DNA of 64,000 bases from Rhodanobacteraceae bacterium (GTDB lineage: Bacteria > Pseudomonadota > Gammaproteobacteria > Xanthomonadales > Rhodanobacteraceae). Under the pieces are notes generated by a model that saw nothing but the letters and a program-made list of their open reading frames with translations, ran no database searches and was not told where the DNA came from. The DNA lies in the NCBI GenBank assembly GCA_004299555.1, contig SCQU01000010.1, positions 1 through 64,000 of the forward strand. The letters run 5' to 3'. The position numbers and the translations under genes were made by a program. Positions 41,100 through 60,789 of this stretch are shown here, piece after piece. Numbering within the stretch: position 1 is the stretch's first letter; the number at the start of each line of letters is the position of its first letter.

Positions 41100-41632
41100 T
41101 TACCAGCGATACATCGGCAACGGGTTGAGCGGGTGCCGCAGACACCACTTGTACCCCAACTGCACGAGTCGCTTGTGGAACCCGCAGTTCGGAAAAGCCA
41201 CCTTGAGGCTCCTCAGGAGTCCTTCGACAGCCCCATCCTGACCAGGCCCAGCGAGAAGTCGGCCGCATCGGCGCGCCTGAACGGCTCGACAAGGTTGTAC
41301 CTGGAGTGGGCACACGAATGGATACGATGATGCAACTCGATCATCTCTGAGATTTCAGGTGCCCAGTCGCCTTTGCCGTGCGCCAGCAGATAGCTCCGCG
41401 CGGCATCTGCCGACGGAGCCAGGTAGTCCAGGGTGCCTGCAGTCCAAATTCCGATGTCGTGGAAGCTACCGGCAATTTGAATCTTCTCTTTCTCGATGTC
41501 CGTGAACTCCCCCGCCGAGTAGCAGAGACTCACGACACGACAGACGTGGTTTCTGTAGCCGCCAAGGTCGGCGCCGATGACCGCTCCGAAGGAGTTGAGG
41601 ATTTCATCCACCAAATGCAAGTTTCTGTCCAC
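41100..41632 (-). pseudogene. HD-domain hydrolase gene with a frameshift
   Basis: The N-terminal frame (41632 to a TGA at 41215-41213) encodes an HD-type phosphohydrolase: YRNHVCRV (His), SFHDIG (HD pair), LHHRIH (His) and VEPFRRADAADFSLGLVRMGL. The expected ending (LKVAFPNCGFHKRLVQLGYK and HPLNPLPMYRW) continues in another frame down to the TAA at 41100. One extra G in the GG of TCGAAGGACTCC (near 41220) would restore a single ~177-residue protein. So the gene has lost one base, by mutation or sequencing error. Start probably GTG 41632 (AGGTG 10 nt upstream) or TTG 41641. Function of this HD family is unknown. Confidence 0.85.
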
Positions 41633-41852
41633 GGTACCCAATCACCTTGGCAGCCGATGCGCTTGGCGTCGCGTGTGATGCTGTGCGCGCGTCACGCGTC
41701 ACGTCGCGAGTACTGGCGGCCGCGCCGTAGTGCCCGCATCGCGCGGTGAAGGAGGACTTACATGCCGATCCCAGCTCGTTCAGTGTAACCCGGTGTGCCG
41801 GTCATGCGGGCAGCTGTTTCTGCACGTGTGCGCAAGGCGCGTTGGTGGGCGT

Positions 41853-42689
41853 TTACGCGACCGGCAGGCGAAGGTCCGACCATTGTTGCAGCAACCCCGA
41901 CCGGAACCCAATGGCCACTGCGTGACACCGGTTGCGCGCACCCAGCTTCTCAAACAGATTGCGCATGTGGAAACGCACCGTGGGCACGGAGATGGCAAGC
42001 ACGTCGGCGATTTGGATATCGCCGTAGCCAGCGGCCAGCAACTCCAACACGGACTGTTCGCGCCCACTCAACGCATCCGCGGTCGACTCGGGCGCCAACA
42101 AGCGCAGGAGGGTCCGGCACAGTACCGGCCGGAGCGCAAACAGGGCCAGTGCGGCGCGGGGTGTGCAGTCGCGATGGTCAGCAACGGCAGAGAACAGCGC
42201 GACGCGCCCATTCTGCACGACGCCGCCAGCGAATCCGCCGCGCTCGCGCCCATAGTCGTGCGCAAGTTGCAGGAAACGGGCGTAAGCGTGGCTGCCTTGT
42301 CTGGATGCCTGCACGAATGCGTTGTGGTCGTTGATGACTCGTGTCCGGTCGACGAACTTCTGACCATCCGCTATCGCCCGCACGATCGGGTCCACCAGAA
42401 TGAACCGTTCTCGCACATATACGGCACGCCAGCGCGCGTCATAGCCCGCGCCATCGAACTCTACTTCCGGTAGTGCTGCCTTGTGGCCAGCCGCGACAAC
42501 GATTTCGCGCAGGTCAAGCCACTCGCCCAGGCCATCTAGACAATGTGGAAGGCTGCCGCGATCGTCGAGGGTTTGAATTTCCCATGCGCGCTCCAGCAGC
42601 TGGTCGCGATCGCGCTTGTCCAGGGTGACGGCGATACGACCAGCGTTGACCGGCGCGACCGCCGTGTTGGATCGTGTACCCGGACTCAT
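41853..42689 (-). CDS. LuxR-family regulator with autoinducer-binding-like domain, no LuxI partner
   Basis: A 278-residue protein. The N-terminal half resembles an autoinducer-binding domain: WRAVYVRERFILVDPIV keeps the Trp, Tyr and Asp-Pro that contact acyl-homoserine lactones, but the second pocket Trp is not evident. The C-terminal LuxR helix-turn-helix is clear (LSGREQSVLELLAAGYGDIQIADVLAISVPTVRFHMRNLFEKL). No luxI-type synthase is in the window. It lies downstream of the transporter genes on the same strand and is a good candidate regulator of the aromatic cluster. ATG 42689 was chosen; the frame is open to 42788. Confidence 0.82.
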   Translation of the reverse strand: MSPGTRSNTAVAPVNAGRIAVTLDKRDRDQLLERAWEIQTLDDRGSLPHCLDGLGEWLDLREIVVAAGHKAALPEVEFDGAGYDARWRAVYVRERFILVDPIVRAIADGQKFVDRTRVINDHNAFVQASRQGSHAYARFLQLAHDYGRERGGFAGGVVQNGRVALFSAVADHRDCTPRAALALFALRPVLCRTLLRLLAPESTADALSGREQSVLELLAAGYGDIQIADVLAISVPTVRFHMRNLFEKLGARNRCHAVAIGFRSGLLQQWSDLRLPVA

Positions 42690-42872
42690 CAACTCCGGTT
42701 CCTCGGCTCTGGCCACGTTCTGGGTCGATAACGCGGCACCGCACGAGTCTGACACGAAGTGCTGATACCGCGGTGTGCGCTGCAGCAATCGCGGATAAGC
42801 TTGCGCACGCGCTGCGCGTGTTGGATCGCCACCACGGGCCGGCGCTGGTACCGGGCCTGGTCACGCGTACGC

Positions 42873-44312
42873 TCAGGGTGCCGCGGCCGCGTCGCGCACG
42901 ACAAAGTCCGCGCGCTTCAGGCGATAGCTGTGAAGCGCCAACAGCATGACCGGAAGCAGCACCAGCAGCAGGATCGCCGGGTAGATGGCGAGGTCGTAGC
43001 GGGTGGCAGGCGCCTGCACCAGTGCCTTGTCGCGAAAACCGATGAAGCCAAGCAGGAACCCGCTCAACGCCACGCTCAGGCTGCTTCCCAGCTTGTACGC
43101 GAAAATGTACAGGCCGGTGTACGCACCTGCGAGATTAACTCCGCTGCGGTTTTCGTTGGCGCGGGCGCAGTCGGTCACCATGGCGTAAGGCAGCGACCAG
43201 AAGGCTCCGTTGCCAAGGCCGGCCAGGATCTGGAATGGCAGCAGGGTCAGTACCACGTGTGCGGATGGCGCCAGCGGAAACCAGTGCCACGCCACGTGGG
43301 TGAACGGTGCGCCCGCGATTCCGACCACCGCCAGCGCGACCGCCATGTACAGGGCGGGCCGCTTGTCATAACGCCGGGCGATGCGGGCCCAGATCGGTTG
43401 CGAGACGACTGCCGAGACCAGCAGGCCGATCATGAGAACGGCAATCTCCGGGCCCGACAGGCCATAGGTAAACGTGTTGATGTGGAATCCAAGCGCGAAT
43501 GTGAGCTGGGCGCCGATTTCGGTCGCGAGTATCAGGAACACCAGTGCGCGAAGGTTGTGGTCGCCCAACACGTCACGCACGGCACGCCAGCCCACGCGCG
43601 GTGCGCCGCGCGCGATCCGCATCCGTGGTATGAATTGCCAGGTACTGGACACCGTAATGGTGGTCACGATGAGGATCAGCACCGCACAGGCCCAGCCCAT
43701 CGGCGCGTAGGCGGCCGGGTTCAACTGGCCCTGCGGGAATGCCGGGGTCGGCCTGAAAAACCATGCACTGCTGCCGATTAGCGCCAGCGCCATTCCGACG
43801 ACCTGAAACGTCGCACGGTACGCCTGAGCGGTGGTGCGGCCATCATAGCTTTCGACAAGATCGCTTCCCATCGCGGTGTGCGGCACGACGAACGCACTGA
43901 TCGCGGTCTTGAGTGCGAATAACGCTGCAACCAGCCAGACGATGGTGAGTCCTGGTGGCAATCCGCGTGGAATCGACCACAGCACGACCGTCAGTACCGC
44001 CACGGCAATACCACCAGCGATCAAAAACGGGTGCCGTCGACCCAGTCGTTGCGAGCGTGTATGGTCAGACATCCAACCGAGGGGCAGGTCGGTCAGCGCG
44101 TCCCACAGGGTCGACAACCCGATGACAACGCCCGCGACATCCGGCGAGACATGCAGGATGGTGGTCGCGTAGAACAGGAACGATGCGCTGACCAGATAGT
44201 ACGCCGCAAGCACCATCCCGCCGCTGCCGTAGCCGGCAAACTGCCATGCCCGCAGCGTCGTTGGGGTGGCGGCATCCGCCATGCCGCCAGGGGAGACGTC
44301 CGCGCGGCTCAT
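42873..44312 (-). CDS. MFS transporter, GPH:cation symporter family
   Basis: A 479-residue, 12-helix membrane protein of the MFS_2 (melibiose-permease-like) type. The GPH pattern is seen in STLWDALTDLPLGWMSDHTRSQRLGRRHPFL (about residue 70-100), ALKTAISAFVVPHTAMGSDL and LGNGAFWSLPYAMVTDCARANENRSG. Family members take up sugars, glycosides or, in several proteobacteria, aromatic and steroid-like compounds with a cation. Start ATG 44312 or 44282. It lies between luxR and the TonB-dependent receptor on the same strand, so it probably moves the receptor's ligand across the inner membrane. Confidence 0.87.
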   Translation of the reverse strand: MSRADVSPGGMADAATPTTLRAWQFAGYGSGGMVLAAYYLVSASFLFYATTILHVSPDVAGVVIGLSTLWDALTDLPLGWMSDHTRSQRLGRRHPFLIAGGIAVAVLTVVLWSIPRGLPPGLTIVWLVAALFALKTAISAFVVPHTAMGSDLVESYDGRTTAQAYRATFQVVGMALALIGSSAWFFRPTPAFPQGQLNPAAYAPMGWACAVLILIVTTITVSSTWQFIPRMRIARGAPRVGWRAVRDVLGDHNLRALVFLILATEIGAQLTFALGFHINTFTYGLSGPEIAVLMIGLLVSAVVSQPIWARIARRYDKRPALYMAVALAVVGIAGAPFTHVAWHWFPLAPSAHVVLTLLPFQILAGLGNGAFWSLPYAMVTDCARANENRSGVNLAGAYTGLYIFAYKLGSSLSVALSGFLLGFIGFRDKALVQAPATRYDLAIYPAILLLVLLPVMLLALHSYRLKRADFVVRDAAAAP

Positions 44313-44448
44313 GTGTTTCGCCCGTCCGCGTCCGCCGGCCACGCGCAAAGGACGAGGCCTGCTGCGCCGTCGCACGCGGCAGCGGCAGGTCGCGGCTCCG
44401 CTACACGGTAGGGTCGGCTGTCCGGCGATGTGGATCGTTCCATCCGGG

Positions 44449-46725
44449 TCAGAACCGGTAACGGACGTCGATGCCGTAGGTGCGCAGCACGGGCGCCAGA
44501 ACCAGCGGCTGGAACAGAGACAGTCCGGGCCGCTGGTGCGTCGCAAAGTCGAAGGTCGTTGCCGGGTCGCCAGCAAACAATGCCGATGGGACGGATTTCT
44601 TGTTGAGTAAATTGTCGACCCACAGCGATACCTGCACGCGGCCCATCTCTAGGCTGCTGTTGAGGTTGAAGACCGTGGTGGACGGGATGATCGCGCTGCC
44701 GGTCTGCACCGCGACCATGCTCGAGCGGTAACGGCCGTCCAGCCGGGTGGTCCACAGCCAGCCATTGGCGAGTGGCTGGGAATGGATGACGCTCGCGGTG
44801 TAGATCCAGCGTGGTGCGTACTGCAACGGCACGCCGGCGAGGTCGGGATCCATGCCGATGATCGAGGCGATCGGGAACAGGTATTTCTGGTAGTTGGAAT
44901 GGTTGTAGGCAAGGCCGGCGCGGAATTGCCAGCGCTGGCTGGGTGCGTACTGGAGGTTGGCCTCAACGCCCTTCGACACGGTTGCCCCTGCGTTGGTGTT
45001 CAATATTGCGCCCAGCGAACCGATGGTGCGCACGATCTGGTCGTGCCAGTTGATCCGGTACACATCCATGTCCAGCAACATGTTGCCATCGAGAAGACTC
45101 AGCTTGGTGCCCAGCTCGTAATTGAGGCTGCGCTCGGACTTGTACGCGCGCTCATTCGGTGCGATGGCACCGTTGGTCGTAAACGTGTTGAACCCGCCCA
45201 CCTTGATCGCCTTCACGACACTCGCGTACACCGTGGCCGTCTTGCTGGGCTTGTAAGTCAGGTACAGTCCGGGCGTGAACGGGGTGAATTTCTGCGACGC
45301 ATCGAACGGCGTGACCGTTTGCGGCCCCTTGACGCTGGCGAGCGTTGTGGTCACCGCCGCCACCGACTTCTTCTCGTCGGTCTTGCGTACGGCCAGCATC
45401 AAGTCCCACTGCGGGGCGATGTGCCAGGTCAAGGTGCCGTACAGAGCCGCCGAGCGGGTGCCCTCGTTGTTGTCGCTGATCAGTCCGCCGAGCGGCACGG
45501 CTGGACCGACATACTCGGTGGTGTCGTTGTGACCGTTGCTGAGGTGGTAGTAATAGAACCCGAGCATCCAGTCGAAGCGCTGATTGCCGGGGGAGAGCAG
45601 GCGCAGGTCCTCGCTGTATGAGTTCTGCGGGCCAGTCGTTCCACCCATTTGCACCGGCGCTGGCGAATAATCGGCATCGAAAAGCTGGTTGATGTCGAAG
45701 TGGTTGTACGCCGTCACCGAGGTCAGGGTTGCCCAGTCCATGCTGTAGTTCATGGTCAGCGACGTGAGGAGGCTGTGGTGGTTGTACTGCCCTGGAGTGA
45801 CGCCGAATCCGCTGGTCAGGGTCGGCAAGTTGCCGAAGAACATCTGGTTGTCGTTGAACATCGGCACGAACGCACCGTTGTTCTCGACGAAGCGCTGTGC
45901 GAAGCCGCGTTGCTGTGTCGCGTCGTAGATCAGGTTGTAGCGAAAGTTGAAGCGGTCGGTCGGCGTGCCGGTCAAGGTCAGGAACGCACCGCGCTTGCGG
46001 TCGCGGTCGACTTTTTTTCCGGTCACCGAGTTGCGATAGAAGCCACCGAAGTAATCCTGCGACAACCCCACCCGGTAGTGATACTTCGATCCGGGTGAGA
46101 ACGGCCCGGAGGCGATGAACTGTTCCTTGTGGGAGTCGTAATTGCCGGCACCCACCAGTACGGACGCTTCCTGATGGTCGCTGGGTTGCTTGGTGATGAA
46201 GTTGATGGCTCCGGCAAAGCTGTTCTGACCAAACAAGGCGAATTGCGGACCTTCGGCGACCTCCACGCGGGCAATGTTGTCCGCGAGCAGAAAGTTCAAT
46301 TCGTCACGCGAGGGAATGTAGACGCCGTCAACGAAGAAGCTGACATTGGGCTCACCGATGGTCGTCGATTCGCCACGGATTACTGTATTCGCGGCCCCCG
46401 GCCCGTTGAACGGCACCATGTTCAGCCCGGGCACGATCATCTGCAGATCGGACGCCGACGTCAGGCCGGCGGTCTGGATGTCCTTCGCGGTCACGACGTT
46501 GACGGCAATCGGCACGTTTTGCATCAGCTCGACCCGTTTGGTGGCGGTGACCGTGATCGCGGCCAATGTTTGCGTTGGTTTCGACTTCTCCGTTGCGGCT
46601 TGCGCGTCCGGCGCGCTTGTTTGTGCTGCCGCGGGCGTATCGGTGGTGGCCTGCTGTGCGTGCGCCGGCTGCATCGCGAGTGCCGCCATGATTGCGAGCG
46701 ACAAGACGCTTGTCTTGGTGTGCAT
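44449..46725 (-). CDS. TonB-dependent outer-membrane receptor
   Basis: A 758-residue receptor. Signal peptide 1-23 (ending AHA); a Thr/Ala/Gln-rich linker; TonB box ITVTATKR near residue 57; plug domain 65-185 (NVPIAVNVVTAKDIQTAG, VIRGESTTIGEPNVSFFVDGVYIP, GPQFALFGQNSFAGAINFITKQP); then a 22-strand barrel ending in YRF, with terminal Phe for BAM recognition. The plug sequence is of the type common in sphingomonads and xanthomonads for organic substrates, not a classic siderophore receptor. GGAGG is upstream of the ATG. No FecIR-like sigma system is next to it. Confidence 0.93.
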   Translation of the reverse strand: MHTKTSVLSLAIMAALAMQPAHAQQATTDTPAAAQTSAPDAQAATEKSKPTQTLAAITVTATKRVELMQNVPIAVNVVTAKDIQTAGLTSASDLQMIVPGLNMVPFNGPGAANTVIRGESTTIGEPNVSFFVDGVYIPSRDELNFLLADNIARVEVAEGPQFALFGQNSFAGAINFITKQPSDHQEASVLVGAGNYDSHKEQFIASGPFSPGSKYHYRVGLSQDYFGGFYRNSVTGKKVDRDRKRGAFLTLTGTPTDRFNFRYNLIYDATQQRGFAQRFVENNGAFVPMFNDNQMFFGNLPTLTSGFGVTPGQYNHHSLLTSLTMNYSMDWATLTSVTAYNHFDINQLFDADYSPAPVQMGGTTGPQNSYSEDLRLLSPGNQRFDWMLGFYYYHLSNGHNDTTEYVGPAVPLGGLISDNNEGTRSAALYGTLTWHIAPQWDLMLAVRKTDEKKSVAAVTTTLASVKGPQTVTPFDASQKFTPFTPGLYLTYKPSKTATVYASVVKAIKVGGFNTFTTNGAIAPNERAYKSERSLNYELGTKLSLLDGNMLLDMDVYRINWHDQIVRTIGSLGAILNTNAGATVSKGVEANLQYAPSQRWQFRAGLAYNHSNYQKYLFPIASIIGMDPDLAGVPLQYAPRWIYTASVIHSQPLANGWLWTTRLDGRYRSSMVAVQTGSAIIPSTTVFNLNSSLEMGRVQVSLWVDNLLNKKSVPSALFAGDPATTFDFATHQRPGLSLFQPLVLAPVLRTYGIDVRYRF

Positions 46726-46854
46726 GATCCCCGCCTCCGTATGCTCTCGCGGTGAGCGTAAGCCGCTGCATCTATCCGTGTAACTATCGAAATCGACAGG
46801 TCACGACAGCGCCTGCCGACGCCTAGAATCGGGGCGAATTACGAAGGACGCCCC
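46726..46854. promoter_or_regulatory. divergent control region of the aromatic-uptake/catabolism genes
   Basis: 129 nt between the receptor gene (minus) and the dienelactone-hydrolase gene (plus). A plus-strand -10 TAGAAT lies at 46824-46829, about 25 nt before the ATG, with only a weak -35 (TCACGA, 46801-46806). Both gene sets could be switched from here. No clear lux-type palindrome is visible. Confidence 0.5.
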
Positions 46855-47685
46855 ATGCAACAGGCCGACACTCGATACGGTGTACGTGTTCGCTACATCA
46901 CGTTCGCGACCGCGTTAGCCAGCGATCCACTCATCATCGCGGCGCAGTTGCGGCTTCCCACGGTGACGGACAGGCAGCCTGCCGTGGTGATCCTGCATGG
47001 TTCGGCGGGGGTCGACACGCGCGGCACCTATCACGCCGAGGCCCTCAACGAGGCCGGGATTGCAACACTGGAACCCGACCTCTGGTCGCCGCGCGCGCTG
47101 CTTGGTGGTACCGGGCCGAACGGCCGGCCGCAGAGCGTGGCGGAAACGGTACCGGATGCGTTCGGCGCACTGAATTACCTGGCGGCGCGCTCCGACATCG
47201 ACGCACGACGGATTGGCGTGATGGGGTTTTCCTGGGGTGGCGTGCTGGCGATGCTCACCGCAACACGCCCGTATTGCGAGCGATATCTCAAGCCCGGTGC
47301 GCCGCGGTTTGCTGCACACGCACCGTTCTACCCGGTGTGCTGGACCTACAACACGGTGCCGGGGCACGAGTTCACCGAACTCACTGGCGCGCCGGTCTTC
47401 ATCCAGAGCGGTGAACGCGACGACTACGACCAGCCCGATACCTGCGAGCGCCTGATCCGAGGCTTGCCGGCAGCAGCACGGCGCTGCGTTACCTGCAAGA
47501 TTTATCCCGACGCGACCCACGCCTTTGACCGGCTTGGTACGCCGCTTGCCGGTGACGATCCGTACTCCCACCTCGGCAAGGGCGGCCAAATCACGATTGC
47601 TCCCAATCCGGGTGCGGCGGCGGCGGCAAGGCGGGCGATGGTGGCCTTCTTCCAGCGCGCGTTCACGGCGGTGGGTGTCCAGTAG
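46855..47685 (+). CDS. dienelactone hydrolase-family alpha/beta hydrolase
   Basis: A 276-residue cytosolic alpha/beta hydrolase. Oxyanion region VVILHGSAGVDTRG; nucleophile elbow GFSWGG (about residue 125) with Ser where classical dienelactone hydrolases have Cys; acid in SGERDDYDQPD; catalytic His in DATHAFDR. It may cleave an ester or lactone; the true substrate is unknown. It is the first gene of the plus-strand operon leading to hppD-hmgA-fahA-maiA, and 14 nt separate it from the ligase gene. Confidence 0.87.
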   Translation: MQQADTRYGVRVRYITFATALASDPLIIAAQLRLPTVTDRQPAVVILHGSAGVDTRGTYHAEALNEAGIATLEPDLWSPRALLGGTGPNGRPQSVAETVPDAFGALNYLAARSDIDARRIGVMGFSWGGVLAMLTATRPYCERYLKPGAPRFAAHAPFYPVCWTYNTVPGHEFTELTGAPVFIQSGERDDYDQPDTCERLIRGLPAAARRCVTCKIYPDATHAFDRLGTPLAGDDPYSHLGKGGQITIAPNPGAAAAARRAMVAFFQRAFTAVGVQ

Positions 47686-47699
47686 CGAGGACAGGCGCC

Positions 47700-49421
47700 A
47701 TGTTCATTGATGTCCACAACCCGGTTGCAAGAACCCCGTCCGCGCGCGCCTTCCCGCTGCTACTGAAGCAATTGTGGATCACACCACTGGCCAACAGCCC
47801 CGCGCGCGAGATCGTGTACCGCGATGGGCGACGCTTCACCTACCGCCAAACGTGGGCGCGCATCGCACGGCTGGCCTCGGCACTCGCGGAACTCGGGGTC
47901 AGGCCGGGGATGACGGTCGCAGTGATGGACTGGGACAGCCATCGCTACTTCGAGTGTTTCTTCGCGATCCCCATGATGGGCTGCGTGCTGCAGACGGTGA
48001 ACGTACGGCTGTCGCGGGCGCAGGTCGCCTACACCCTTAACCACGCCGAGGCGGACGTGGTTCTCGCCAACGCCGAGTTCGTGCCGCTGCTGGACGCGAT
48101 CCGTGACGATTTGACCCGCAAGATCACGTTTGTACTGCTGAGTGATGCGACGCCTGCATCACCACCCGCCGCGCCATTCGCGGGCGAGTACGAAACGCTC
48201 CTCGCGCGAGCGAGCGCCGCGTACGACTTCCCTGATTTTGACGAGAACACACGCGCGACCACGTTTTATACGACAGGCACCACCGGCGAACCCAAGGGGG
48301 TCTATTACAGCCATCGCCAGCTGGTGCTGCACACGCTGGCGATCGCCGGCTGGCTTGGCACCGCGCCGGTACAAGGGCGGCTGCACCGTGAAGACGTCTA
48401 CATGCCGATCACACCCATGTTTCATGTGCACGCGTGGGGCATGCCGTACGCAGCGACGTTGCTTGGGTTGAAGCAGGTGTATCCGGGGCGTTACGACGGA
48501 GCGACCCTGCTGCGGCTGATCCGCGACGAAAAGGTGACGTTCTCCCACTGCGTTCCGACACTGTTGCAAATGTTGCTTGACCATCCGGATTCGAAACTTA
48601 CGGACCTGTCACACCTGAAGATGGTGATTGGCGGTTCCGCGTTGTCGCCTGGATTGTGCCGGCGCGCGCTCGAACGCGGCATTGACGTGTTCACCGGCTA
48701 CGGAATGAGCGAAACCTGCCCCATCCAGACGGTGCTGCACCTCAGCAGTACCGAGGCGGCGACGTCGATCGAGCAGCAGGCCGAACTGCGCACGCTGACT
48801 GGTAGCCCGTTCATGCTGTGCGATGTGCGGGTAGCTGACGATGCCGTGCGCGGGCAACCACATGACGGTGTGTCCCAGTGCGAAGTGGTGTTCCGCAGCC
48901 CATGGTTGACGCAAGGTTACCTGAAGGACCCCGCGCGCTCGGAGGCGCTGTGGCGCGGTGGCTATCTCCACTCCGGCGACATCGGCAGCATCGACAGCGA
49001 CGGTCGACTGCGGATCACCGATCGCCTCAAGGACGTGATCAAGACCGGCGGTGAATGGGTCAGCTCGCTCACGCTCGAGGGGCTGATTTCGAGAATTCCC
49101 GGCGTGAGTGAGGTTGCGGTGATCGCGGTGCCGGACCCGAAGTGGGGCGAGCGCCCGCTGGCATTGGTGGTACCGCAGGCCGGGGCGACGCTGACCTCTG
49201 ACAGTATCCGCGCGGAGCTCGAGCAGGCCGCCCACGCGGGCGCAATAGGAACCTATGCGGTACCCGACGCCATCCGATTCGTCGAGTCACTGGCCAAGAC
49301 CAGCGTTGGCAAGCTCGACAAGAAAAAACTGCGGCAGCTCCACGCCACTGCACCGGCGGCACCATCCGCCGGCTCCCATCCAAACCCGACGCCGGCCACG
49401 GCGCAACGGAGGACACCATGA
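47700..49421 (+). CDS. acyl-CoA ligase (AlkK-like ANL enzyme)
   Basis: A 573-residue ANL enzyme. P-loop FYTTGTTGEPKGVYYSHRQ; PMFHVHAWGMPY; adenine motif GYGMSETCP; hinge ITDRLKDVIKTGGEWVSS; catalytic Lys in KTSVGKLDKKKL. It resembles AlkK-type medium-chain ligases; the acid it activates is unknown. The homogentisate pathway itself needs no CoA ligase, so this enzyme points to an added substrate. Residues after about 545 are a Pro/Ala-rich tail. Strong site GAGGACAGG before the ATG; it overlaps hppD by 4 nt. Confidence 0.87.
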   Translation: MFIDVHNPVARTPSARAFPLLLKQLWITPLANSPAREIVYRDGRRFTYRQTWARIARLASALAELGVRPGMTVAVMDWDSHRYFECFFAIPMMGCVLQTVNVRLSRAQVAYTLNHAEADVVLANAEFVPLLDAIRDDLTRKITFVLLSDATPASPPAAPFAGEYETLLARASAAYDFPDFDENTRATTFYTTGTTGEPKGVYYSHRQLVLHTLAIAGWLGTAPVQGRLHREDVYMPITPMFHVHAWGMPYAATLLGLKQVYPGRYDGATLLRLIRDEKVTFSHCVPTLLQMLLDHPDSKLTDLSHLKMVIGGSALSPGLCRRALERGIDVFTGYGMSETCPIQTVLHLSSTEAATSIEQQAELRTLTGSPFMLCDVRVADDAVRGQPHDGVSQCEVVFRSPWLTQGYLKDPARSEALWRGGYLHSGDIGSIDSDGRLRITDRLKDVIKTGGEWVSSLTLEGLISRIPGVSEVAVIAVPDPKWGERPLALVVPQAGATLTSDSIRAELEQAAHAGAIGTYAVPDAIRFVESLAKTSVGKLDKKKLRQLHATAPAAPSAGSHPNPTPATAQRRTP

Positions 49422-50506
49422 ACCCGCAGCAAGACAAAGGCATGGAGCTCATGCCGTTTGAAAACCCGATGGGCATCGATGGATTCGAGTTCGTCGAATT
49501 CGCCGCACCTGATCCAAAGGTGCTGCACGAGGTGTTTCACGGGCTCGGCTTCACCCCGGTGGCAAAGCGTCGCCGGCGGGCGGTCACGTTGTACCGGCAG
49601 GGACAGTGCAACCTGCTTTTGAATGCCGAGCCGGACTCGTTCGCATCCGCGTTCGCCGCTGCGCACGGCCCCTCCGCGTGCGGGTTCGCGCTGCGCTTCA
49701 CCCGCCCCGTGCGTGAGGTGCTGCACGAAGTGCTCGCCAAGGACGCGCGCGAGGTACCCGGCAACGCTGACACGCTCGCCGTGGACACGCCCGCGATCGA
49801 TGGCGTCGGCGGATCCGCGTTGTACCTGGTTGATCGCTATGGCGACCGGGGTAGTCTCTACGACGATTGGGAATGGCTGGTTCCGGAGGGACGCCGCCAC
49901 CCCGCCGGGTCAGGCCTCACCTTCATCGATCATCTCACCAACAACGTCGAGCTCGGCAAGATGGTCGAGTGGGCAGGCTTCTACGAGCGACTGTTCAACT
50001 TCCGTGAGCTTCACTACTACGACATCAAAGGCGCCAAGACCGGCCTCGTCTCCAAGGCGATGACCGCGCCCGATGACCGGGTCCGCATTCCGGTCAACGA
50101 GTCAAGCGATCCGAAATCGCAGATCAACGAATTCATCGAGCAATATCATGGTGCGGGTATCCAGCACATCGCGATCCGCACCGACGACATCTACGCGACC
50201 GTCGAGAAGATGCGCGCCGCAGGGGTGGCCTTCCTGGATACCCCGGATGCCTACTTCGAGATGATCGACACCCGGATCCCGAACCACGGAGAGGACATAC
50301 CACGGCTGGCCCGGAACAAGATCCTGATCGACGCCGACCTCGAATCCAGGAAGAAGATTCTGCTGCAGATTTTCACCCAGAACTGCATCGGCCCGATCTT
50401 CTTCGAGATCATCCAGCGCAAGGGCAACCGCGGTTTTGGCGACGGCAACTTCACCGCGCTGTTCGAGGCGATGGAGCGCGACCAGATGCAACGCGGAGTG
50501 TTGTGA
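49418..50506 (+). CDS. hppD: 4-hydroxyphenylpyruvate dioxygenase
   Basis: A 362-residue HPPD that converts 4-hydroxyphenylpyruvate to homogentisate with O2. Two glyoxalase-like halves; Fe(II) ligands are His in FIDHLTNNV, His in AGIQHIAI and Glu in [28 protein letters not shown] and the end [17 protein letters not shown] are typical. ATGA overlap with the ligase shows translational coupling; hmgA begins 10 nt later. Confidence 0.96.
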
Positions 50507-50516
50507 GGCCTGCGCG

Positions 50517-51818
50517 ATGACTTGCGCGTACCTGAGCGGGTTGGGCAACAGCCATGCGAGCGAGGCGTTGCCCGGTGCGCTGCCGGTTGGGCAGAACGCC
50601 CCGCAGCATGTGCCCTACGGCTTGTACACCGAACAGTTTTCCGGCACCGCCTTCACCGCACCGCGCCACCTCAATCGCAGAAGCTGGCTCTACCGGATCC
50701 GGCCCGCGGCGGTGCAGGGTGCGTTCGAGGAGTACCCGCACCCGCGCTTCTCGAACGATTTCGCGGAGGTGCCAACTTCGCCGGAGCCGATGCGCTGGGG
50801 GCCATTTCCGTTCCCCGACGCGCCCACCGATTTCGTTGACGGTCTCTACACTCTGGCCGGCAACGGCTCTGCGCCACGGCGGGTCGGCGCCGGTGTTCAT
50901 CTGTACGCTTGCAACCGACCGATGCAGGGCCGCTATTTCTATGACGCCGATGCCGAGCTCGTGATCGTGCCGCAACAGGGGCGCCTCGCGCTTGCAACCG
51001 AGCTCGGCGTACTCGAAGTCGAGCCGCAGCAGCTGGCGGTACTGCCGCGCGGGTTGCGATTCCGGGTCGACCTGGGCGATGGCGCGGCGCGTGGCTACGT
51101 TGGCGAGAACTTTGGCGAGCCCCTGCAATTGCCGGAGCTTGGCCCGATCGGCGCTAACGGTCTTGCCAATGCCCGTGATTTCGAGGCGCCCGTCGCGGCG
51201 TATGAAGACCTTGAAGGCAACTTCGAGCTGATCGCCAAGTTCCAAGGCCGGCTATGGCGCGCACCCATCGACCACTCGCCCCTGGACGTCGTGGCGTGGC
51301 ACGGGACGCATGTGCCGTATCGGTACGATCTGCGTCACTTCAACACGATCGGCTCGGTTTCCTACGACCATCCCGATCCCTGCATCTACACAGTGCTGAC
51401 CTCGCCATCCGACACACCCGGCACCGCCAATCTTGACCTTGCGGTGATTCCACCGCGTTGGCTGGTCGCCGAGCACACCTTTCGGCCGCCGTGGTTCCAC
51501 CGCAACATTGCGAGCGAATTCATGGGACTCATCCACGGCGAGTACGACGCCAAGGACGCGGGTGGCGGCTTCGTGCCGGGGGCGATGAGCCTGCACAATT
51601 GCATGACCGGGCACGGCCCGGACGCCGCGAGCTACACGCGTGCGATGGCGGTCGACACGCGTGTGCCACAACATATCGTCGACACCATGGCGTTCATGTT
51701 CGAAACACGCTGCGTGCTCCACCCGACCCGGAGGGCACTGAACGCGCCGCAGCGGCAGCGTGACTACCCACGGTGCTGGCAGGGAGTCACCAAGCACTTC
51801 AACGCAACGGCACCCTGA
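50517..51818 (+). CDS. hmgA: homogentisate 1,2-dioxygenase
   Basis: A 433-residue HGO that opens homogentisate to maleylacetoacetate. N-terminal [19 protein letters not shown] and [14 protein letters not shown]; Fe ligands in [20 protein letters not shown] (His, Glu) and [13 protein letters not shown] (His). GAGG lies 9 nt before ATG 50517. It sits between hppD and fahA, completing the ring-cleavage step. Confidence 0.96.
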
Positions 51819-51837
51819 GAGCGTGGAGGTCTACTGG

Positions 51838-52833
51838 ATGAAACTTGCAACACTCCGGGAGGGCAGCCGCGATGGCACCCTCATCGTCGTCAGCCGCGAT
51901 CTTGTTCACGGTGTCCGCGTCCGCGGCATTGTGCCAACGCTGCAATGCGCGTTGGACGACTGGGCGCAAGTCGCCCCGCGGCTGGAGTCGGTGTACGCAG
52001 CGCTAAACCAACATCCCACGCACACGGTGCAAGGGGCGTTCGCGCTTGATGTGCAGGCTCTTGCGGCGCCGTTCCCGCGTGCTTATGAATTCCTGGATGG
52101 GAGCTCCTATCTTGCACACGTCGAGCGCGTGCGCCAGGCGCGCGGTGCCACCGTTCCCGAGACGTTCTACACCGATCCGTTGATGTACCAGGCGACCTGC
52201 GGCGGCTTTCTCGCCGCTCGCGATCCGATCGTGATACCGGACGATCGCTTCGGCCTGGACCTGGAAGCGGAGGTCATCGTTGTGACCGATGATGTCCCGA
52301 TGGCGACGGATGCCGCTCAAGCATCATCCCACATTCGGCTGCTGGGACTGGTCAATGACGTCAGCCTGCGAAACCTCATTCCGGTTGAAATCGCAAAAAG
52401 CCTGGGCTTTGTGCAGTCCAAGCCGCGCTCCGCGCTGTCGCCGGTACTGGCGACACCGGACGAGCTCGGCACAGCGTGGGCCGGTGACAAGGTCCACCTG
52501 CCCATGCGCACCTGGATCAACGGCAAGTGGTTCGGTGCAGCCGAAGCCGGCGAAGACATGCAATTCAACTTCGCGCAATTGATCGCCCACGCCGCCCGCA
52601 CCCGTCCGCTCGTGGCCGGCACATTGATCGGCTCGGGCACCGTTGCCAACCATGACACGGCCAAGGGCAATTCATGCATTGCCGGGCGCCGGAGCGTGGA
52701 AACGTTGCATGGGGGCGCCCCGGTGACGCCGTTCCTGCGCTATGGCGATACCGTGAAGATCGACATGCTGGATCGTGACGGGCGTTCCATCTTCGGTGCG
52801 ATCGACCAATGCATCAGACCGCTGGCCGAGTGA
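51838..52833 (+). CDS. fahA: fumarylacetoacetate hydrolase
   Basis: A 331-residue FAH of the short bacterial type, cleaving fumarylacetoacetate to fumarate and acetoacetate. DLEAEVIVV holds the metal-binding acids, and LLGLVNDVSLRNLIP, GFVQSKPRSALSPV and TLIGSGTVANHD are family blocks. GGAGGT precedes ATG 51838 by 8 nt; the frame open from 51760 lies within hmgA. The spacing to hmgA is 19 nt. Confidence 0.94.
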   Translation: MKLATLREGSRDGTLIVVSRDLVHGVRVRGIVPTLQCALDDWAQVAPRLESVYAALNQHPTHTVQGAFALDVQALAAPFPRAYEFLDGSSYLAHVERVRQARGATVPETFYTDPLMYQATCGGFLAARDPIVIPDDRFGLDLEAEVIVVTDDVPMATDAAQASSHIRLLGLVNDVSLRNLIPVEIAKSLGFVQSKPRSALSPVLATPDELGTAWAGDKVHLPMRTWINGKWFGAAEAGEDMQFNFAQLIAHAARTRPLVAGTLIGSGTVANHDTAKGNSCIAGRRSVETLHGGAPVTPFLRYGDTVKIDMLDRDGRSIFGAIDQCIRPLAE

Positions 52834-52858
52834 ATCGGCGCAGATCGAGGACAAACGC

Positions 52859-53530
52859 ATGCCGGCCGAACGAGCCCTGTACAGCTACTGGCGGTCCAGC
52901 GCGGCCTACCGTGTACGCATCGCCCTGAACTTGAAGGGCCTCGATTATGTGATCAGGCCGGTACACATGCTGCGCGATGGCGGTGAACAGCACCACGCCG
53001 GTTACCATGCACTCAATCCGCTTGAAGTAGTACCGACCCTGGTCGATCGTGGGAACGTACTGACCGAGTCACTCGCGATCATTGAGTACCTCGAGGAAGC
53101 CTATCCCGATACGCCGCGGCTGTTGCCACGCAGACCTCTTGTACGCGCCCGCGTACGTTCGCTCGCCCAGGTCGTCGCCTGTGACATCCACCCGATCGGC
53201 AATCTGCGTGTACTGCAATATCTGCAGCGCGAACTCGGCGTCGATGACCCGCACAAGGGCGAATGGTCCCGGTACTGGATCGAAGTCGGCTTCGCGGCGA
53301 TCGAGGCAACCCTGGCCGCAGGCGGGCACGACGGCAGGTTTTGCGTGGGCAATGAACCCACCCTCGCGGACTGCTGCCTTGTGCCACAGGTGTACAACGC
53401 GCGGCGATTCGGCGTATCCCTGCTGCCGTTCCCAACCATCGTCGCGATCGATGCGGCGTGCGCCGAGATCGGCGCATTCCTCCGAGCGCTACCGGAGACC
53501 CAACCCGACGCACCGGCCACCAATGGATGA
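52859..53530 (+). CDS. maiA: maleylacetoacetate isomerase (zeta-class GST)
   Basis: A 223-residue glutathione transferase fold protein. The zeta motif region reads YSYWRSSAAYRVRIALNLKGL, followed by NPLEVVPTLVDRGNVLTESLAIIEYLEE (GSH site) and CDIHPIGNLRVLQYL. It isomerises maleylacetoacetate to fumarylacetoacetate with glutathione. The Cys of the classical SSCxWRVRIAL motif is Ala here, as in several proteobacterial enzymes as far as I recall. GAGG before ATG 52859. The last gene of the operon. Confidence 0.93.
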   Translation: MPAERALYSYWRSSAAYRVRIALNLKGLDYVIRPVHMLRDGGEQHHAGYHALNPLEVVPTLVDRGNVLTESLAIIEYLEEAYPDTPRLLPRRPLVRARVRSLAQVVACDIHPIGNLRVLQYLQRELGVDDPHKGEWSRYWIEVGFAAIEATLAAGGHDGRFCVGNEPTLADCCLVPQVYNARRFGVSLLPFPTIVAIDAACAEIGAFLRALPETQPDAPATNG

Positions 53531-53973: not shown

Positions 53974-56164
53974 ATGCGTGCCGTAAATCGCGTTGCCGCT
54001 TCGGCGTTCTCGCTGTCCCTGGCCATCCTCGCCGGTTCACCTGCGCTGGCCGCCACTGACCCGCTTGCGTCGGTCGGCGTGGGTACCGCGCCACCCGAAG
54101 CGCCCATCAAGTCGGTGACCGAAACGCTTACGGTGTCAAGGTGACGGACAATTACCGTTACATGGAAAAGCTGGACCAGGCGACCCTCGAGTGGATGAAG
54201 GCCGATGGCGCCTATACGCGCAAGGTGCTGGACGCGATCGCGCCTCGGGCCGCACTGCAAAAGCGTGTTTCTGCATTGACCGGCAGCTTCGGTTTCATGC
54301 AAGGCTATGTGTCCTATGGTGGTCGCGAGTTCTATGAAGAACGTTTGCCGGCTGCGGATGATTTCGACCTGATCGTGCGTGATGCCGCTGGCGCCCGCAG
54401 GCTCGTCGATGTCGACGCCCTCCGCGCGGTGAGTGGGGGCAGGCCCTACGCGATCAACTGGTTTCTTGCATCGCAGGACGGAAGCAAAGTGGCGGTCGGG
54501 GTATCCGAGGGCGGTTCGGAAAATGCTGCGATGACCGTTTACGACGCGGCTACCGGCAAACCCATCGGCAGCCCGATCGACCGCGTGCAGCTCGGCGCGA
54601 CCGCGTGGAGCCATGATTCGAAGACGGTGTATTTCAATCGTCTGCGGCAATTGAAGCCCGGTGAATCAGGAACCGACACCTACAAGAACTCCACGCTGTA
54701 TGGCTGGAACCTCAAGGACGAACCGTTCGCAGTGCTTGGTACCCGCGTCGGCCACGGCCCGAAGTTCGCCTCCGAGGAATTGCCCGGACTCGCCATCATC
54801 CCGGGTTCGACGGAGGCGCTGGCGCTGTCAATCAATGGTGTGCAGCACGAATGGAAAGCATGAATGACACCAGCCGCGGATGTGGCAAATCCAAAGGCCG
54901 TCTGGAGGTCCCTCGTCGATCGCAGTGACGACATCACCGGTATGGGCGTGCGCGGCGACGAGATCTTCCTGCTGTCGCACAAGGACGCGCCGACCTTCAA
55001 GGTACTGGAGATGAAGGCTGGAGGACCCCTGTCGGCCGCAAGGACGCTGGTGGCTGCGCAACCCGATCGCGTGATAGAGAAGATTGCCGCAGCCTCGGAG
55101 GCCTTGTACGTGCTGGCGCGCAGGGGCGCATATTCGCAACTACTGCGCATCCCGGCCGGCAGCAACCAGGCTGAGCAGGTCATCCTGCCGTTCGAAGGCC
55201 ACATCGACGAGGCGTTTGCCGACTCCCGCCAGCCGGGCATCACCCTCGTTCTTTCCAGTTGGGTGGTACAGCCGACCACGTTCCGCTACGACCCCTCGGT
55301 GCAGAAGTTCGCGGCCCTGGACATCGGGCATCGCGGTGACATGGACGCAGCTGCATTCAAGGTCAGCGATCTCGAATCGAAGGCAAGCGATGGCGTGATG
55401 GTACCGCTGAGCCTGATCCAGCCGAAGGGTGCCGAGGGTGCGCAGATCACCCTGATCGAGGCCTATGGTTCCTACGGCATCTCCAATCTTGCCGACTTCA
55501 GCACGCGACGCGCGGCGGCGATGCGGGAGCGCGTCACTTATGGAATAGGCCACGTACGCGGTGGCGGCGAGAAGAGCGAGGCGTGGCGCCTCGGCGGCAA
55601 GGATGCCAACAAGCACCATACCTGGGAAGACCTGATCGCCTGCAGCGAGGATCTGATTGCGCGCGGCATCACCACGAAGGACAAACTGTTCATCATCGGC
55701 GGCTCGGCTGGCGGTATCACCATGGGTCGCGCGATGACCGAGGTCCCGACCTGTTTGCGGGCGTCATCGACCTGGTGCCGGCGGCCAACACGCTCCGCGC
55801 CGAGTTCTCGCCGAATGGACCGCCGAACATCCCGGAGTTTGGCGCGGTCGAACACGAGCGGGGGTTCAAGAACCTGTACGCGATGGACTCGATCCAGCAC
55901 GTGAAGCACGGGGTTGCCTATCCTGCCGTGATGATTACCACGGGTCTGAACGATCCGCGTGTTTTGCCGTGGGAGCCAGCCAAGTTCGCGGCGGCTTTGC
56001 AGGCTTCGGGTACACCCAACCCGGTGCTGCTGCGGATCGACACCAAGGCCGGTCACGGCGTTGGCTCGACCCGGACGCAGATTGACCGGCTGACCGCCGA
56101 CTGGATCGCCTTCACGTTCTGGCGCGCAGGCGATGCCGGCTGGCGACCCGCCGCGGAGCATTGA
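53974..56164 (+). pseudogene. secreted S9A prolyl oligopeptidase gene with three lesions
   Basis: Joined, the pieces give one ~730-residue S9A peptidase. It starts at ATG 53974 with GGAG upstream and a signal peptide ending ALA. The frame then shifts near 54126 (after VTET; the continuation VKVTDNYRYMEKLDQ is in another frame, ending the first piece at TGA 54142-54144). A TGA at 54861-54863 interrupts HEWKA/MTPAADV in frame, where a TGG is likely ancestral. A second shift lies near 55743, after GRAMTE. Catalytic Ser (IIGGSAGGITMG), Asp (TGLNDPRV) and His (AGHGVGSTR) are all still readable. No single product can be made unless these are sequencing errors. Confidence 0.88.
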
Positions 56165-58648: not shown

Positions 58649-59365
58649 CTATTGCAGCAGCGGAGACGCCGTGGCGTTCAGTTCCACGCCTTCGATGTCG
58701 GCATGCCCGGCCAATACCTGCACGTACTGCGACAAGGCGCGCGCCTCGCTGCGCTGCCTGAGTTCTTTGGCGACCTGTGCGCGGACGGCTTCGTAGGGAA
58801 GCTGCTGGCCTTGGATTCGCTGGTCGACGCTCACGATGTGGAAGCCGTAGCGGGTTTTGACCAGGGCCGGCAACACCCCGGTGGTTTTCGTTTCAAAGAT
58901 GGCCTTGTCGAATTCCGCGACCATCTGTCCACGCTGGATCTGGCCCAGGTTGCCGCCATTGGCACCCGATGGACAGTTCGAGTTCTTGCGTGCGCGCTCC
59001 TCGAACAATTCCGGCTTGGCCCGAATCTCTTTCAGGGTTGCCTCGGCAAACGCACGAATGGCCGGTACCGAAACCTTCGGGGTTACCTGAAACAGGATGT
59101 GGCGGGCATTTACCAGGTCGCCAGACCGGTAGTGCTTCTTGTTGGCGGCGTACCAGCGACGGCATTCATCTTCGCTGGGGTCCGGCACCGGAACATCTTC
59201 AGCGAGGGTGCGTTCAATCGCGTGTGCAATCGCCGTGGCATCGGCCGCGTCCGTCAACAAGCCAAGTTCGCAGGCTCGCTGGCGCAGCAGTTCATGTACC
59301 ACCGCAAGCTCGCGTGTGGGCCATGCGTCGATGTCAACGCTGACTCCATTGACCGCGACGTTCAT
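58649..59365 (-). CDS. parvulin-type peptidyl-prolyl isomerase (NifM/PpiC-like)
   Basis: A 238-residue protein with an N-terminal helical region and a rotamase domain from about residue 95: NARHILFQVTPKVSVPA, NCPSGANGGNLGQIQRGQMV, KTRYGFHIVSVDQRI. There is no signal peptide, so it acts in the cytosol. Similar genes sit after narI in many beta/gammaproteobacteria and are thought to help fold nitrate reductase, as NifM does for nitrogenase. ATG 59365 overlaps the narI stop by 4 nt, with GGAG upstream. Confidence 0.88.
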   Translation of the reverse strand: MNVAVNGVSVDIDAWPTRELAVVHELLRQRACELGLLTDAADATAIAHAIERTLAEDVPVPDPSEDECRRWYAANKKHYRSGDLVNARHILFQVTPKVSVPAIRAFAEATLKEIRAKPELFEERARKNSNCPSGANGGNLGQIQRGQMVAEFDKAIFETKTTGVLPALVKTRYGFHIVSVDQRIQGQQLPYEAVRAQVAKELRQRSEARALSQYVQVLAGHADIEGVELNATASPLLQ

Positions 59366-60114
59366 ACGCCTGGCTCCACATCGTCGCGCACCCTTGCCAC
59401 CCGCTGCGGCTCGCTTACGGTATTGCCGCGCTTGCGCACCAGCTGCTGCGGCCGGAGCAGGTAAGCCAACGTGCCAACACCGCTCCAGATGTGGACCATG
59501 CGTGTAAAGGGCGACACGAGGAAGATGGTGAAGCCCAGCAGGATGTGGATCTGGTAGGCCCATGGCGCGCCCTGGATGATCGCGGCGCTGCCCCCCTCGA
59601 AATATACGATCGACTGGACGTAATGGATCAGCACTTCAAAGTCACCGGTCTGCAGCGTACGTGCGGAGTACCAGATCGTGGTCAGCCCCAGCGCAAGCTG
59701 GAACCACAGCATGAACACGATGGTGATATCCCACTTGCGGCTGTTGCCGCGGATGCGCCGGTAATACAGGCGGCGGTGAATCAGGATCGTCATGCCGGTA
59801 AGGGCGAGCAGGCCGGCAATCCCGCCCACGATCATCGCCAGCAGTTCGTGCTGGGTCGGCGTAATCAGTAGATAGACCAGTTTTTCCGGCAGCAGGAACC
59901 CGACGAAATGTCCTGCGATCACGATCAGCACGCCGTAGTGAAACAAATTGGAACCAAGCTTGAGTTCATGCCGCGACAGCGTCTGCGATGAATCGCTCTT
60001 CCACGAATAGGGTTCGCGGTCGAACCGGACGAGGCTGCCCAGCAGCAGCACCGCGAGGCAGATGTACGGATAAACACCAAACAGGAACTCGTTCAAGGGG
60101 CCGGGCAGGGTCAT
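59362..60114 (-). CDS. narI: respiratory nitrate reductase gamma subunit (cytochrome b)
   Basis: A 250-residue membrane protein with five helices. Haem b ligands H59 and H69 in NLFHYGVLIVIAGHFVG, and the pair in YQIHILLGF and SPFTRMVHIWS, 18 residues apart as in E. coli. It takes electrons from quinol on the periplasmic side and hands them to NarH. It starts 19 nt after narJ and is coupled to the isomerase gene. The last ~25 residues are a basic cytoplasmic tail. Confidence 0.96.
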   Translation of the reverse strand: MTLPGPLNEFLFGVYPYICLAVLLLGSLVRFDREPYSWKSDSSQTLSRHELKLGSNLFHYGVLIVIAGHFVGFLLPEKLVYLLITPTQHELLAMIVGGIAGLLALTGMTILIHRRLYYRRIRGNSRKWDITIVFMLWFQLALGLTTIWYSARTLQTGDFEVLIHYVQSIVYFEGGSAAIIQGAPWAYQIHILLGFTIFLVSPFTRMVHIWSGVGTLAYLLRPQQLVRKRGNTVSEPQRVARVRDDVEPGV

Positions 60115-60133
60115 GGGGATACCTCCAGCGGAT

Positions 60134-60778
60134 TCATCTCACGGTGGCGTGTTCCGGCCGCAGGGCAGGATTGGGTTCAGGCGGCGCAAACGCAGGCGTT
60201 TCTTCCCACGCGCGATCGAGGTCTTCAGGTGGCGGGACCGGTGCGCTGGCATCGAGGCCCTGCTCGCCGGCAAGTGCCAGCAACGCCGCCATGACCGCGG
60301 CGTAGCGGCTGTGGCGCTTGAGCAGGGTATTGCCCAACGCGCGAAGGATGTGGGCGATCTCGCCAATGGTGCTGCGGGTTTCGGCAGCGTCACAGCAACT
60401 CAAGTATTCGAGCAACACGGGCAGGTGGTCGGGCAGTTCATCGGTACGCGGCTCCAGCCCGGCGTCGAGGTAGCGCTTGCGCAGTTCCAGCATGGCCGGA
60501 CCCCGCTGGCGGCCGTCGCCGTGGACGTGCTCGAAGAGGTTCAACGACGTGCGCCGGCCGCGGTCGAACAGGTCCACGTAGCGTCCCTCCGCCTCGAGCG
60601 GATCGCTGGCGGAGATTTCGTCTGCCAGCGCGCACAGGTCGTCCTTGAGGTTGGCCTTGAGCGTGCGGCTCGTGCGGATCGCGTCGGTGATCTCGGGCAG
60701 CGCCGCACGCAGTTCCGCGTCTGGATAGACCAGCAGGGCGGAAAGTGCGCGCAGCAGGAGCGTTGGATTCCTGGCCAT
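60134..60778 (-). CDS. narJ: nitrate reductase molybdenum-cofactor assembly chaperone
   Basis: A 214-residue all-helical chaperone: LLLRALSALLVYPDAELRAALPEI, YVDLFDRGRRTSLNLFEHVHGDGRQRGPAML, LDAGLEPRTDELPDHLPVLLEYLS. It binds apo-NarGH in the cytosol and allows Mo-bisMGD insertion before membrane attachment. GAGGGA upstream of ATG 60778; 11 nt after narH. The C-terminus is Pro-rich. Confidence 0.95.
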   Translation of the reverse strand: MARNPTLLLRALSALLVYPDAELRAALPEITDAIRTSRTLKANLKDDLCALADEISASDPLEAEGRYVDLFDRGRRTSLNLFEHVHGDGRQRGPAMLELRKRYLDAGLEPRTDELPDHLPVLLEYLSCCDAAETRSTIGEIAHILRALGNTLLKRHSRYAAVMAALLALAGEQGLDASAPVPPPEDLDRAWEETPAFAPPEPNPALRPEHATVR

Positions 60779-60789
60779 GGTTCGATCCC

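Follow-up and report, generated by a model that had tools for sequence, protein, structure and literature searches.

In a 64,000-nucleotide stretch of a Rhodanobacteraceae genome (contig SCQU01000010.1 of assembly GCA_004299555.1, positions 1 to 64,000; hereafter the window), the genes for a LuxR-family regulator, a transporter and a TonB-dependent receptor are divergent from a six-gene operon that encodes a hydrolase, a ligase and a second homogentisate pathway. Our analysis suggests, with moderate confidence, that this block, at 41853-53530, is a module that takes up and cleaves a conjugated compound under LuxR control and passes its aromatic part into the homogentisate pathway. The conjugate would be acylated and, in relatives, perhaps also rhamnosylated. 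The reading is drawn from gene content, from a core of four genes that recurs in other genomes, from a conserved inverted repeat between the two arms and from the closeness of the module to homogentisate genes.

Organization of the block

All nine genes of the block were confirmed by profile searches and their frames are open. The arrangement given in an earlier note on this DNA, in which a homogentisate pathway shares an operon with a hydrolase and a ligase and is divergent from a receptor, a Major Facilitator Superfamily (MFS) transporter and a LuxR protein, was borne out. The features are as follows.

41853..42689, minus strand: unpaired LuxR-family regulator with autoinducer-binding and GerE helix-turn-helix (HTH) domains (Pfam); likely start 42689, open reading frame (ORF) open to 42788
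42873..44312, minus strand: MFS_2-family (GPH-like) transporter (Pfam PF13347); likely start 44282-44312
44449..46725, minus strand: TonB-dependent outer-membrane receptor (Pfam PF00593, PF07715)
46782..46801, no strand: lux-box-like inverted repeat in the gap between the receptor and hydrolase genes; its centre lies some 63-66 bp away from each of the two start codons
46855..47685, plus strand: DLH-family hydrolase (Pfam PF01738)
47700..49421, plus strand: AlkK-like acyl-CoA/acyl carrier protein (ACP) ligase (NF004837)
49418..50506, plus strand: hppD, the genome's second copy (TIGR01263)
50517..51818, plus strand: hmgA, the genome's second copy (TIGR01015); likely start 50517
51838..52833, plus strand: fahA, the genome's second copy (FAA_hydrolase and FAA_hydro_N_2); likely start 51838
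52859..53530, plus strand: maiA, the genome's second copy (the other is on contig C28; TIGR01262); likely start 52859

By these likely starts the genes of the right-hand operon are separated by 14, -4, 10, 19 and 25 bp. On the minus arm, the LuxR protein matches GerE (PF00196, 60.7 bits) and Autoind_bind (PF03472, 38.4 bits), both above the cut-off, and the receptor has both the barrel (PF00593, 137.8 bits) and the plug (PF07715, 64.9 bits). The transporter ORF as first listed runs into the receptor gene, and its start was moved accordingly; the protein reaches the cut-off of PF13347 with 191.5 bits. The hydrolase matches DLH (PF01738, 65.8 bits) and, in an alignment of eight relatives, carries a GFSWGG motif with a conserved Asp and His. 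The ligase has an AMP-binding domain (248.7 bits), scores 604.3 bits with the model of the AlkK-like fatty-acid subfamily (NF004837, cut-off 476) and matches PDB entry 8hsy over nearly its full length (610 bits). HPPD (TIGR01263, 371.5 bits), HmgA (TIGR01015, 618.9 bits) and MaiA (TIGR01262, 294.2 bits) are all above the NCBIfam cut-offs. FahA scores 18.5 bits with the fumarylacetoacetase model TIGR01266 (cut-off 375) and is assigned on its Pfam domains (FAA_hydrolase, 96.8 bits; FAA_hydro_N_2, 84.2 bits) and its place in the operon; it is 70% identical to the gene at the same position of the canonical locus described below.

A UilS-type acyl-homoserine lactone (AHL) lactonase was considered for the hydrolase and rejected, as the match to NF047920 reaches 36.5 bits (residues 28-137) against a cut-off of 400 and this assignment would leave the homogentisate genes unexplained. 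The predicted structure of the hydrolase alone has a mean pLDDT of 37 and was not used.

The core module in other genomes

The hydrolase was found in at least five of 233 genomes of the family: the genome studied here (G000) and another of the same genus (G166), and three of the genus g19 (G1136, G1137 and G1140). In this and the wider genome searches below, the first 5, 6, 10 or 11 candidates per genome were scored, and the counts from them are lower bounds. In each of the five genomes the genes for LuxR, the MFS transporter and the TonB receptor lie in the same order, divergent from the hydrolase gene. The co-conservation by which the earlier note proposed to check its reading is therefore seen for these four genes as one unit, and extends to nearby homogentisate genes in three of the five genomes.

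Relative to the window proteins, identity is 46-50% for LuxR, 68-72% for the transporter, 60-65% for the receptor and 59-61% for the hydrolase. All four core proteins of G166 are nearer to those of g19 than to those of G000, so the module does not simply follow the genera. The G000 core genes are the most diverged of the five, and the block hppD, hmgA and fahA are nearer overall to the host genus; on these two grounds we rejected a recent transfer of the whole block from g19.

Elsewhere the module appears to be rare. Among the matches listed for 197 family genomes, a sample without the three g19 carriers in which at most 11 candidates per genome were scored, a LuxR match over most of the protein was found only in G000 and G166. 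In 398 genomes of the order (a sample without G166 and the three g19 carriers) the hydrolase was found only in G000, and in 398 genomes of the phylum only in G000 and, as a lone hydrolase with no module gene in the surrounding 37 kb, in G787; in 274 genomes of the class the transporter was found only in G000. On plasmids, the best listed matches to the transporter, LuxR and the receptor are at most 30, 34 and 28% identical, and none of the three hydrolase matches (all Deinococcus) and one transporter match that were inspected lies in such a module. An empty insertion site was not found in the surroundings taken from G166 and G157, which are matched only by the ABC-F gene of the window.

The inverted repeat and the LuxR protein

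The regions between the two arms of the five loci were aligned together with 20-30 coding bases on either side. Of the best 20 columns, 14 are invariant, where the mean is 6.5. These columns are the repeat at 46782-46801, midway between the start codons of the receptor and hydrolase genes, which is self-complementary at 14 of 20 positions in G000 and 12 of 20 in G166. The pairwise alignment of this region between G000 and G166, which included some coding sequence on both sides, scores 61 against 22 (standard deviation 3.7, maximum 36) for 300 shuffles. The sites of the three g19 genomes are identical, so that at most three independent sequences lie behind the conservation. The repeat fits the lux-box consensus at 11-12 of 16 positions; this alone is not significant, since 543 of 127,962 window positions score at least 11/16. 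Weight-matrix scores are circular, the matrix having been built from the same sites, and are no proof; the independent evidence is the alignment. We infer that the repeat, which resembles a lux box, is a candidate for a LuxR operator shared by both arms.

In alignments that included CviR and RhlR, all five module LuxRs retain the equivalents of TraR W57, Y61, D70 and P71 and all five lack the W85 equivalent. This agrees with the earlier statement that part of the AHL pocket is kept. As judged from these residues, the pocket is neither AHL-complete nor of the OryR plant type, because the first four equivalents are kept and W85 is lost. In the OryR group, W57 and Y61 are replaced by M and W; since both are kept in all five module LuxRs, a plant-signal receptor of this type was ruled out.

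No luxI lies beside the block luxR. The sole PF00765 match in the G000 genome is on contig C3, where genes for a LuxR, a DUF4902 protein and LuxI are found (L124 7812-9751); a dyad lies where the luxI frame begins. The block LuxR is therefore unpaired, although an AHL synthase is encoded elsewhere in the genome, and because of this LuxI the cell's own AHL may be the ligand. LuxI was found in one of the 16 genomes of the genus (G000); it was not found in G166, which is 81% complete, and the search did not extend to g19. The block and C3 LuxRs are 22% identical, and the half-site of the repeat differs from the luxI dyad. A scan of genome contigs with LuxR yielded a single match, which covers just the HTH, and Padloc gave weak matches to the LuxR HTH only.

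A second homogentisate pathway

A canonical hppD-hmgA-fahA locus is also present in G000 (contig C26), together with the other maiA (contig C28). The block is therefore a second, divergent homogentisate set and not the cell's only pathway for tyrosine. In the host genus, hppD was found in 14 of 16 genomes, in a single copy except in G000, which has two, and the canonical locus is present at all 14 loci fetched; maiA was found in 15 of 16, with two copies only in G000. Across the order, hppD was found in 218 of 250 genomes (E <= 1e-100), and among the matches listed only G000 has two copies.

The block genes are 71% (hppD), 74% (hmgA), 70% (fahA) and 67% (maiA) identical to the other copies in G000. 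Identity of hppD, hmgA and fahA is 68-71%, 70-78% and 69-73% to the host genus, and 64%, 70-71% and 66-67% to two g19 genomes. A phylogenetic analysis of 44 HPPDs, made up of the block copy, 14 from the genus and 29 of the best matches from the order, puts the block copy on a very long branch, as does a joint analysis of hppD, hmgA and fahA with 17 rows; the placement of so long a branch is unsure. Among columns that are otherwise invariant, the block copy departs at 15 of 177 for HPPD, 14 of 230 for HmgA and 35 of 230 for FahA. When each of the other copies is left out in turn as a control, it departs at most at 5, 12 and 4 columns, respectively, so the divergence of HmgA is not out of the ordinary. 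The HPPD metal-ligand motifs are present in the block copy. A donor of these genes was not found; among the matches listed, the best full-length plasmid hppD is 57% identical.

Position relative to homogentisate loci

The comparison took in 14 hppD loci that have no module beside them, ten of g19 and those of G000, G166, G083 and G024 (four of the 14 host-genus loci). The usual order is tryptophan dioxygenase, one or more POT transporters, marR, hppD, hmgA and fahA; the dioxygenase and marR are present in all 14 and POT in 13. In G1140 the module lies between the tryptophan dioxygenase and marR-hppD, where no POT match was found. In G1137 the module adjoins sdhB-acnA-marR-hppD, about 5-6 kb from hppD; the 1.2 kb from the module to the contig end on its left showed no dioxygenase. 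In G039, which has no module, sdhB-acnA is found at the same place, behind the POT genes. Counting G000, where hppD is in the same operon, three of the five genomes thus have the module among homogentisate genes or no more than about 6 kb from them. As the G1140 module sits where other hppD loci have POT genes, the module seems to fill a transporter slot of the aromatic amino acid locus in g19, and in G000 it has its own hppD operon.

Accessory genes of the relatives

Directly after the hydrolase gene, G166 and G1140 have a gene with alpha-L-rhamnosidase Pfam domains (PF17389, PF17390, PF08531 and PF05592, above the cut-off; family GH78); by eye the protein has no evident signal peptide. In G1137 this gene is shortened and lacks the C-terminal domain, and in G1136 an N-terminal remnant of only about the first 130 residues is left behind the hydrolase gene (L131 12267-12613). 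The hydrolase arm of G1140 also encodes a ligase 72% identical to that of the window, followed by a RidA gene. G1137 has a related ligase without its first 78 residues and a RidA fragment; no ligase was found behind the G1136 hydrolase, and the one ligase of the G166 contig is distant (26%) and on the opposite strand. An esterase of the hormone-sensitive-lipase kind is found at the other end of the module in G166, G1140 and, in two frames, G1137, and the G1140 module has a GHL6/fucosidase-like gene. The rhamnosidase-like, RidA, esterase and GHL6 genes have no match in the window. With its split esterase, shortened rhamnosidase-like gene and 5'-less ligase and RidA genes, the G1137 module (L130 1238-11974) is apparently decaying.

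Relatives of the hydrolase adjoin RidA-family genes in three Deinococcus plasmids (L077 9893-11367, L148 3950-5353 and L076 9929-11285), on the same strand in two and convergent in one, and the RidAs encoded there share 66-70% identity with the G1140 protein.

The proposed function and its alternatives

In the function that we propose, the TonB receptor would bring the intact conjugate across the outer membrane and the MFS_2 transporter would carry it into the cytoplasm. There, cleavage of an ester or amide bond by the DLH-type hydrolase would release an acid, which the AlkK-like ligase would activate. The tyrosine-derived part, as 4-hydroxyphenylpyruvate, would be converted to fumarate and acetoacetate by the dedicated HppD, HmgA, FahA and MaiA. 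LuxR, with the conjugate or its acyl product, would bind the repeat midway between the arms and switch on both, its own gene included. The inducible import, cleavage and feeding into homogentisate suggested in the earlier note thus gains from the core conserved in all five genomes, the shared repeat and the three modules near homogentisate genes, and loses from the two without such genes nearby. The rhamnosidase-like gene of the relatives hints that the substrates of these modules are, as a class, perhaps glycosidic or acylated, and more than the plain aromatic ester or lactone that was also suggested there.

Several observations weigh against this function. No homogentisate gene was found near the G166 module (a 10.9-kb contig; hppD is on another contig, of which 19 kb were viewed) or near the G1136 module, in 54 of the 155 kb of its contig. 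The three g19 loci are close relatives that may count as one case, and the closeness to hppD in G1137 and G1140 may be one event. Overall, the block hppD, hmgA and fahA show higher identity to the host genus (68-78%) than to g19 (64-71%); the module and the homogentisate genes therefore differ in history, and chance may have brought them together. The transporter is below the GPH symporter model TIGR00792 (110.5 bits, cut-off 231), and the rhamnosidase-like protein of G1140 scores 72.9 and 71.3 bits with NF041573 and NF041572, far below 1720 and 1800. The G000 block has neither the rhamnosidase-like nor the RidA gene, and the G1136 remnant without a ligase and the damaged G1137 ligase indicate that the module decays easily.

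The strongest of the alternatives, which we nevertheless consider unlikely, is that the module serves rhamnoside or rhamnolipid utilization: a rhamnosylated lipid or phenolic would be imported, the rhamnose removed, the ester cut and the fatty acid activated, and the G000 homogentisate genes would be an unrelated second copy behind the module. This would account for the rhamnosidase-like gene after the hydrolase and the esterase in G166, G1137 and G1140, the GHL6/fucosidase-like gene, a transporter from the MFS_2 sugar-transport family and a ligase of the fatty-acid type. It does not account for the G000 block, which has no rhamnosidase-like gene and has its homogentisate genes in one operon with the ligase (with a 4-bp overlap), or for the modules of G1140 and G1137 in or by a tyrosine/tryptophan catabolic locus. 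It is also possible, with a distinctly lower probability, that tyrosine catabolism is under quorum control, LuxR sensing the AHL made by the C3 LuxI and turning on a scavenging receptor, together with a spare set of homogentisate genes, when cells are dense. The presence of this LuxI near a full LuxR, in one genome of 16, and the four retained pocket residues are what would be expected; the loss of W85 in all five LuxRs, the half-site unlike the luxI dyad and the low identity of the two LuxRs are not, and in G166, which has a related LuxR and the repeat, no LuxI was found (at the completeness given above, and with g19 left unsearched).

The least probable explanation, in our judgement, is a chance neighbourhood, in which a divergent duplicate of the homogentisate operon without special function has come to lie beside an unrelated uptake locus. 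The core without nearby homogentisate genes in G166 and G1136, and the long branch that sets the block genes apart from the host genus and g19, point in this direction; the tight six-gene operon with hydrolase and ligase, the hppD close by in G1140 and G1137 and the open frames all point away from it.

A narrower version of the proposed uptake-and-cleavage function is a speculation to which, taken as a whole, we give a low probability. Here the module would degrade lipid-like N-acyl or O-acyl conjugates, some of them rhamnosylated, of tyrosine or dehydrotyrosine. The hydrolase would release a fatty acid, for the ligase, and a tyrosine enamine or imine, which RidA would turn into 4-hydroxyphenylpyruvate for HppD. 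LuxR would recognize the acyl conjugate, that is, a quorum-sensing receptor would have become a nutrient sensor for lipids shaped like AHLs. The basis is the RidA gene of G1140, with the fragment in G1137, and the hydrolase-RidA neighbours in Deinococcus, which hint that hydrolases of this kind may release an enamine or imine; the G000 block itself has no RidA gene.

Neighbouring genes

A prolyl-oligopeptidase (S9) gene adjoins the block (window 54141-56164) and is broken by a stop codon in frame and by a change of frame, unless these are errors of the assembly. Beyond luxR is a gene for an HD-domain protein (PF01966, window 41213-41641), which nothing links to the block. Further downstream, at 58649-62331, are genes for the respiratory nitrate reductase gamma and beta subunits and a PPIC-type isomerase.

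Comparison with known systems

Utilization loci for glycosides with a TonB receptor, an MFS transporter and an alpha-L-rhamnosidase are a known type. The block shares with them the receptor, the MFS_2 transporter and, in its relatives, the rhamnosidase-like gene, and adds LuxR, the DLH hydrolase, a fatty-acid-type ligase and homogentisate genes; no such locus with these additions was found in the open-access literature. The central homogentisate pathway, as encoded by the hmg genes of Pseudomonas putida with hpd, has the same four steps as hppD-hmgA-fahA-maiA. The block differs in being its genome's second set, placed behind a hydrolase and a ligase and divergent from a TonB receptor, and in its putative control by LuxR in place of the HmgR repressor or of the MarR-type gene beside the canonical G000 copy. 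The repressor role of HmgR in the homogentisate pathway is stated in excerpts of PMC13273656.

Like the LuxR solos (LesR and the OryR/PsoR/XccR group), the block LuxR has an autoinducer-binding domain and an HTH and no adjacent LuxI. Unlike them, it is encoded with uptake genes probably under its control, in a genome with a LuxI elsewhere, and it keeps the W57 and Y61 equivalents that the OryR group replaces. LesR, a LuxR solo of Lysobacter, alters the expression of nine TonB receptors, according to excerpts of PMC4886534. The reference list of PMC13273656 cites Fu et al. 2025, whose title reports a LuxR solo for the dibenzofuran-catabolic genes of Rhodococcus; going by this title, a LuxR-type protein over aromatic catabolism is common to both, and host and substrate differ. 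In the open-access literature, judged mostly from listings, we found no described system with the gene set of the block, and nothing on point for N-acyl tyrosine with LuxR, for duplicated homogentisate clusters or for RidA with dehydrotyrosine.

Many LuxR proteins without an adjacent LuxI have no known ligand. The block LuxR sits with genes for import and cleavage and with a candidate binding site, which makes the question of its ligand directly testable, and the catabolic genes would limit that ligand to compounds that yield 4-hydroxyphenylpyruvate together with an acid. The homogentisate pathway has been duplicated and apparently recruited for a new input, with a candidate uptake route for a conjugated aromatic compound. 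The joining of a rare module to a second copy of a tyrosine-breakdown pathway thus points to a dedicated route for such a compound.

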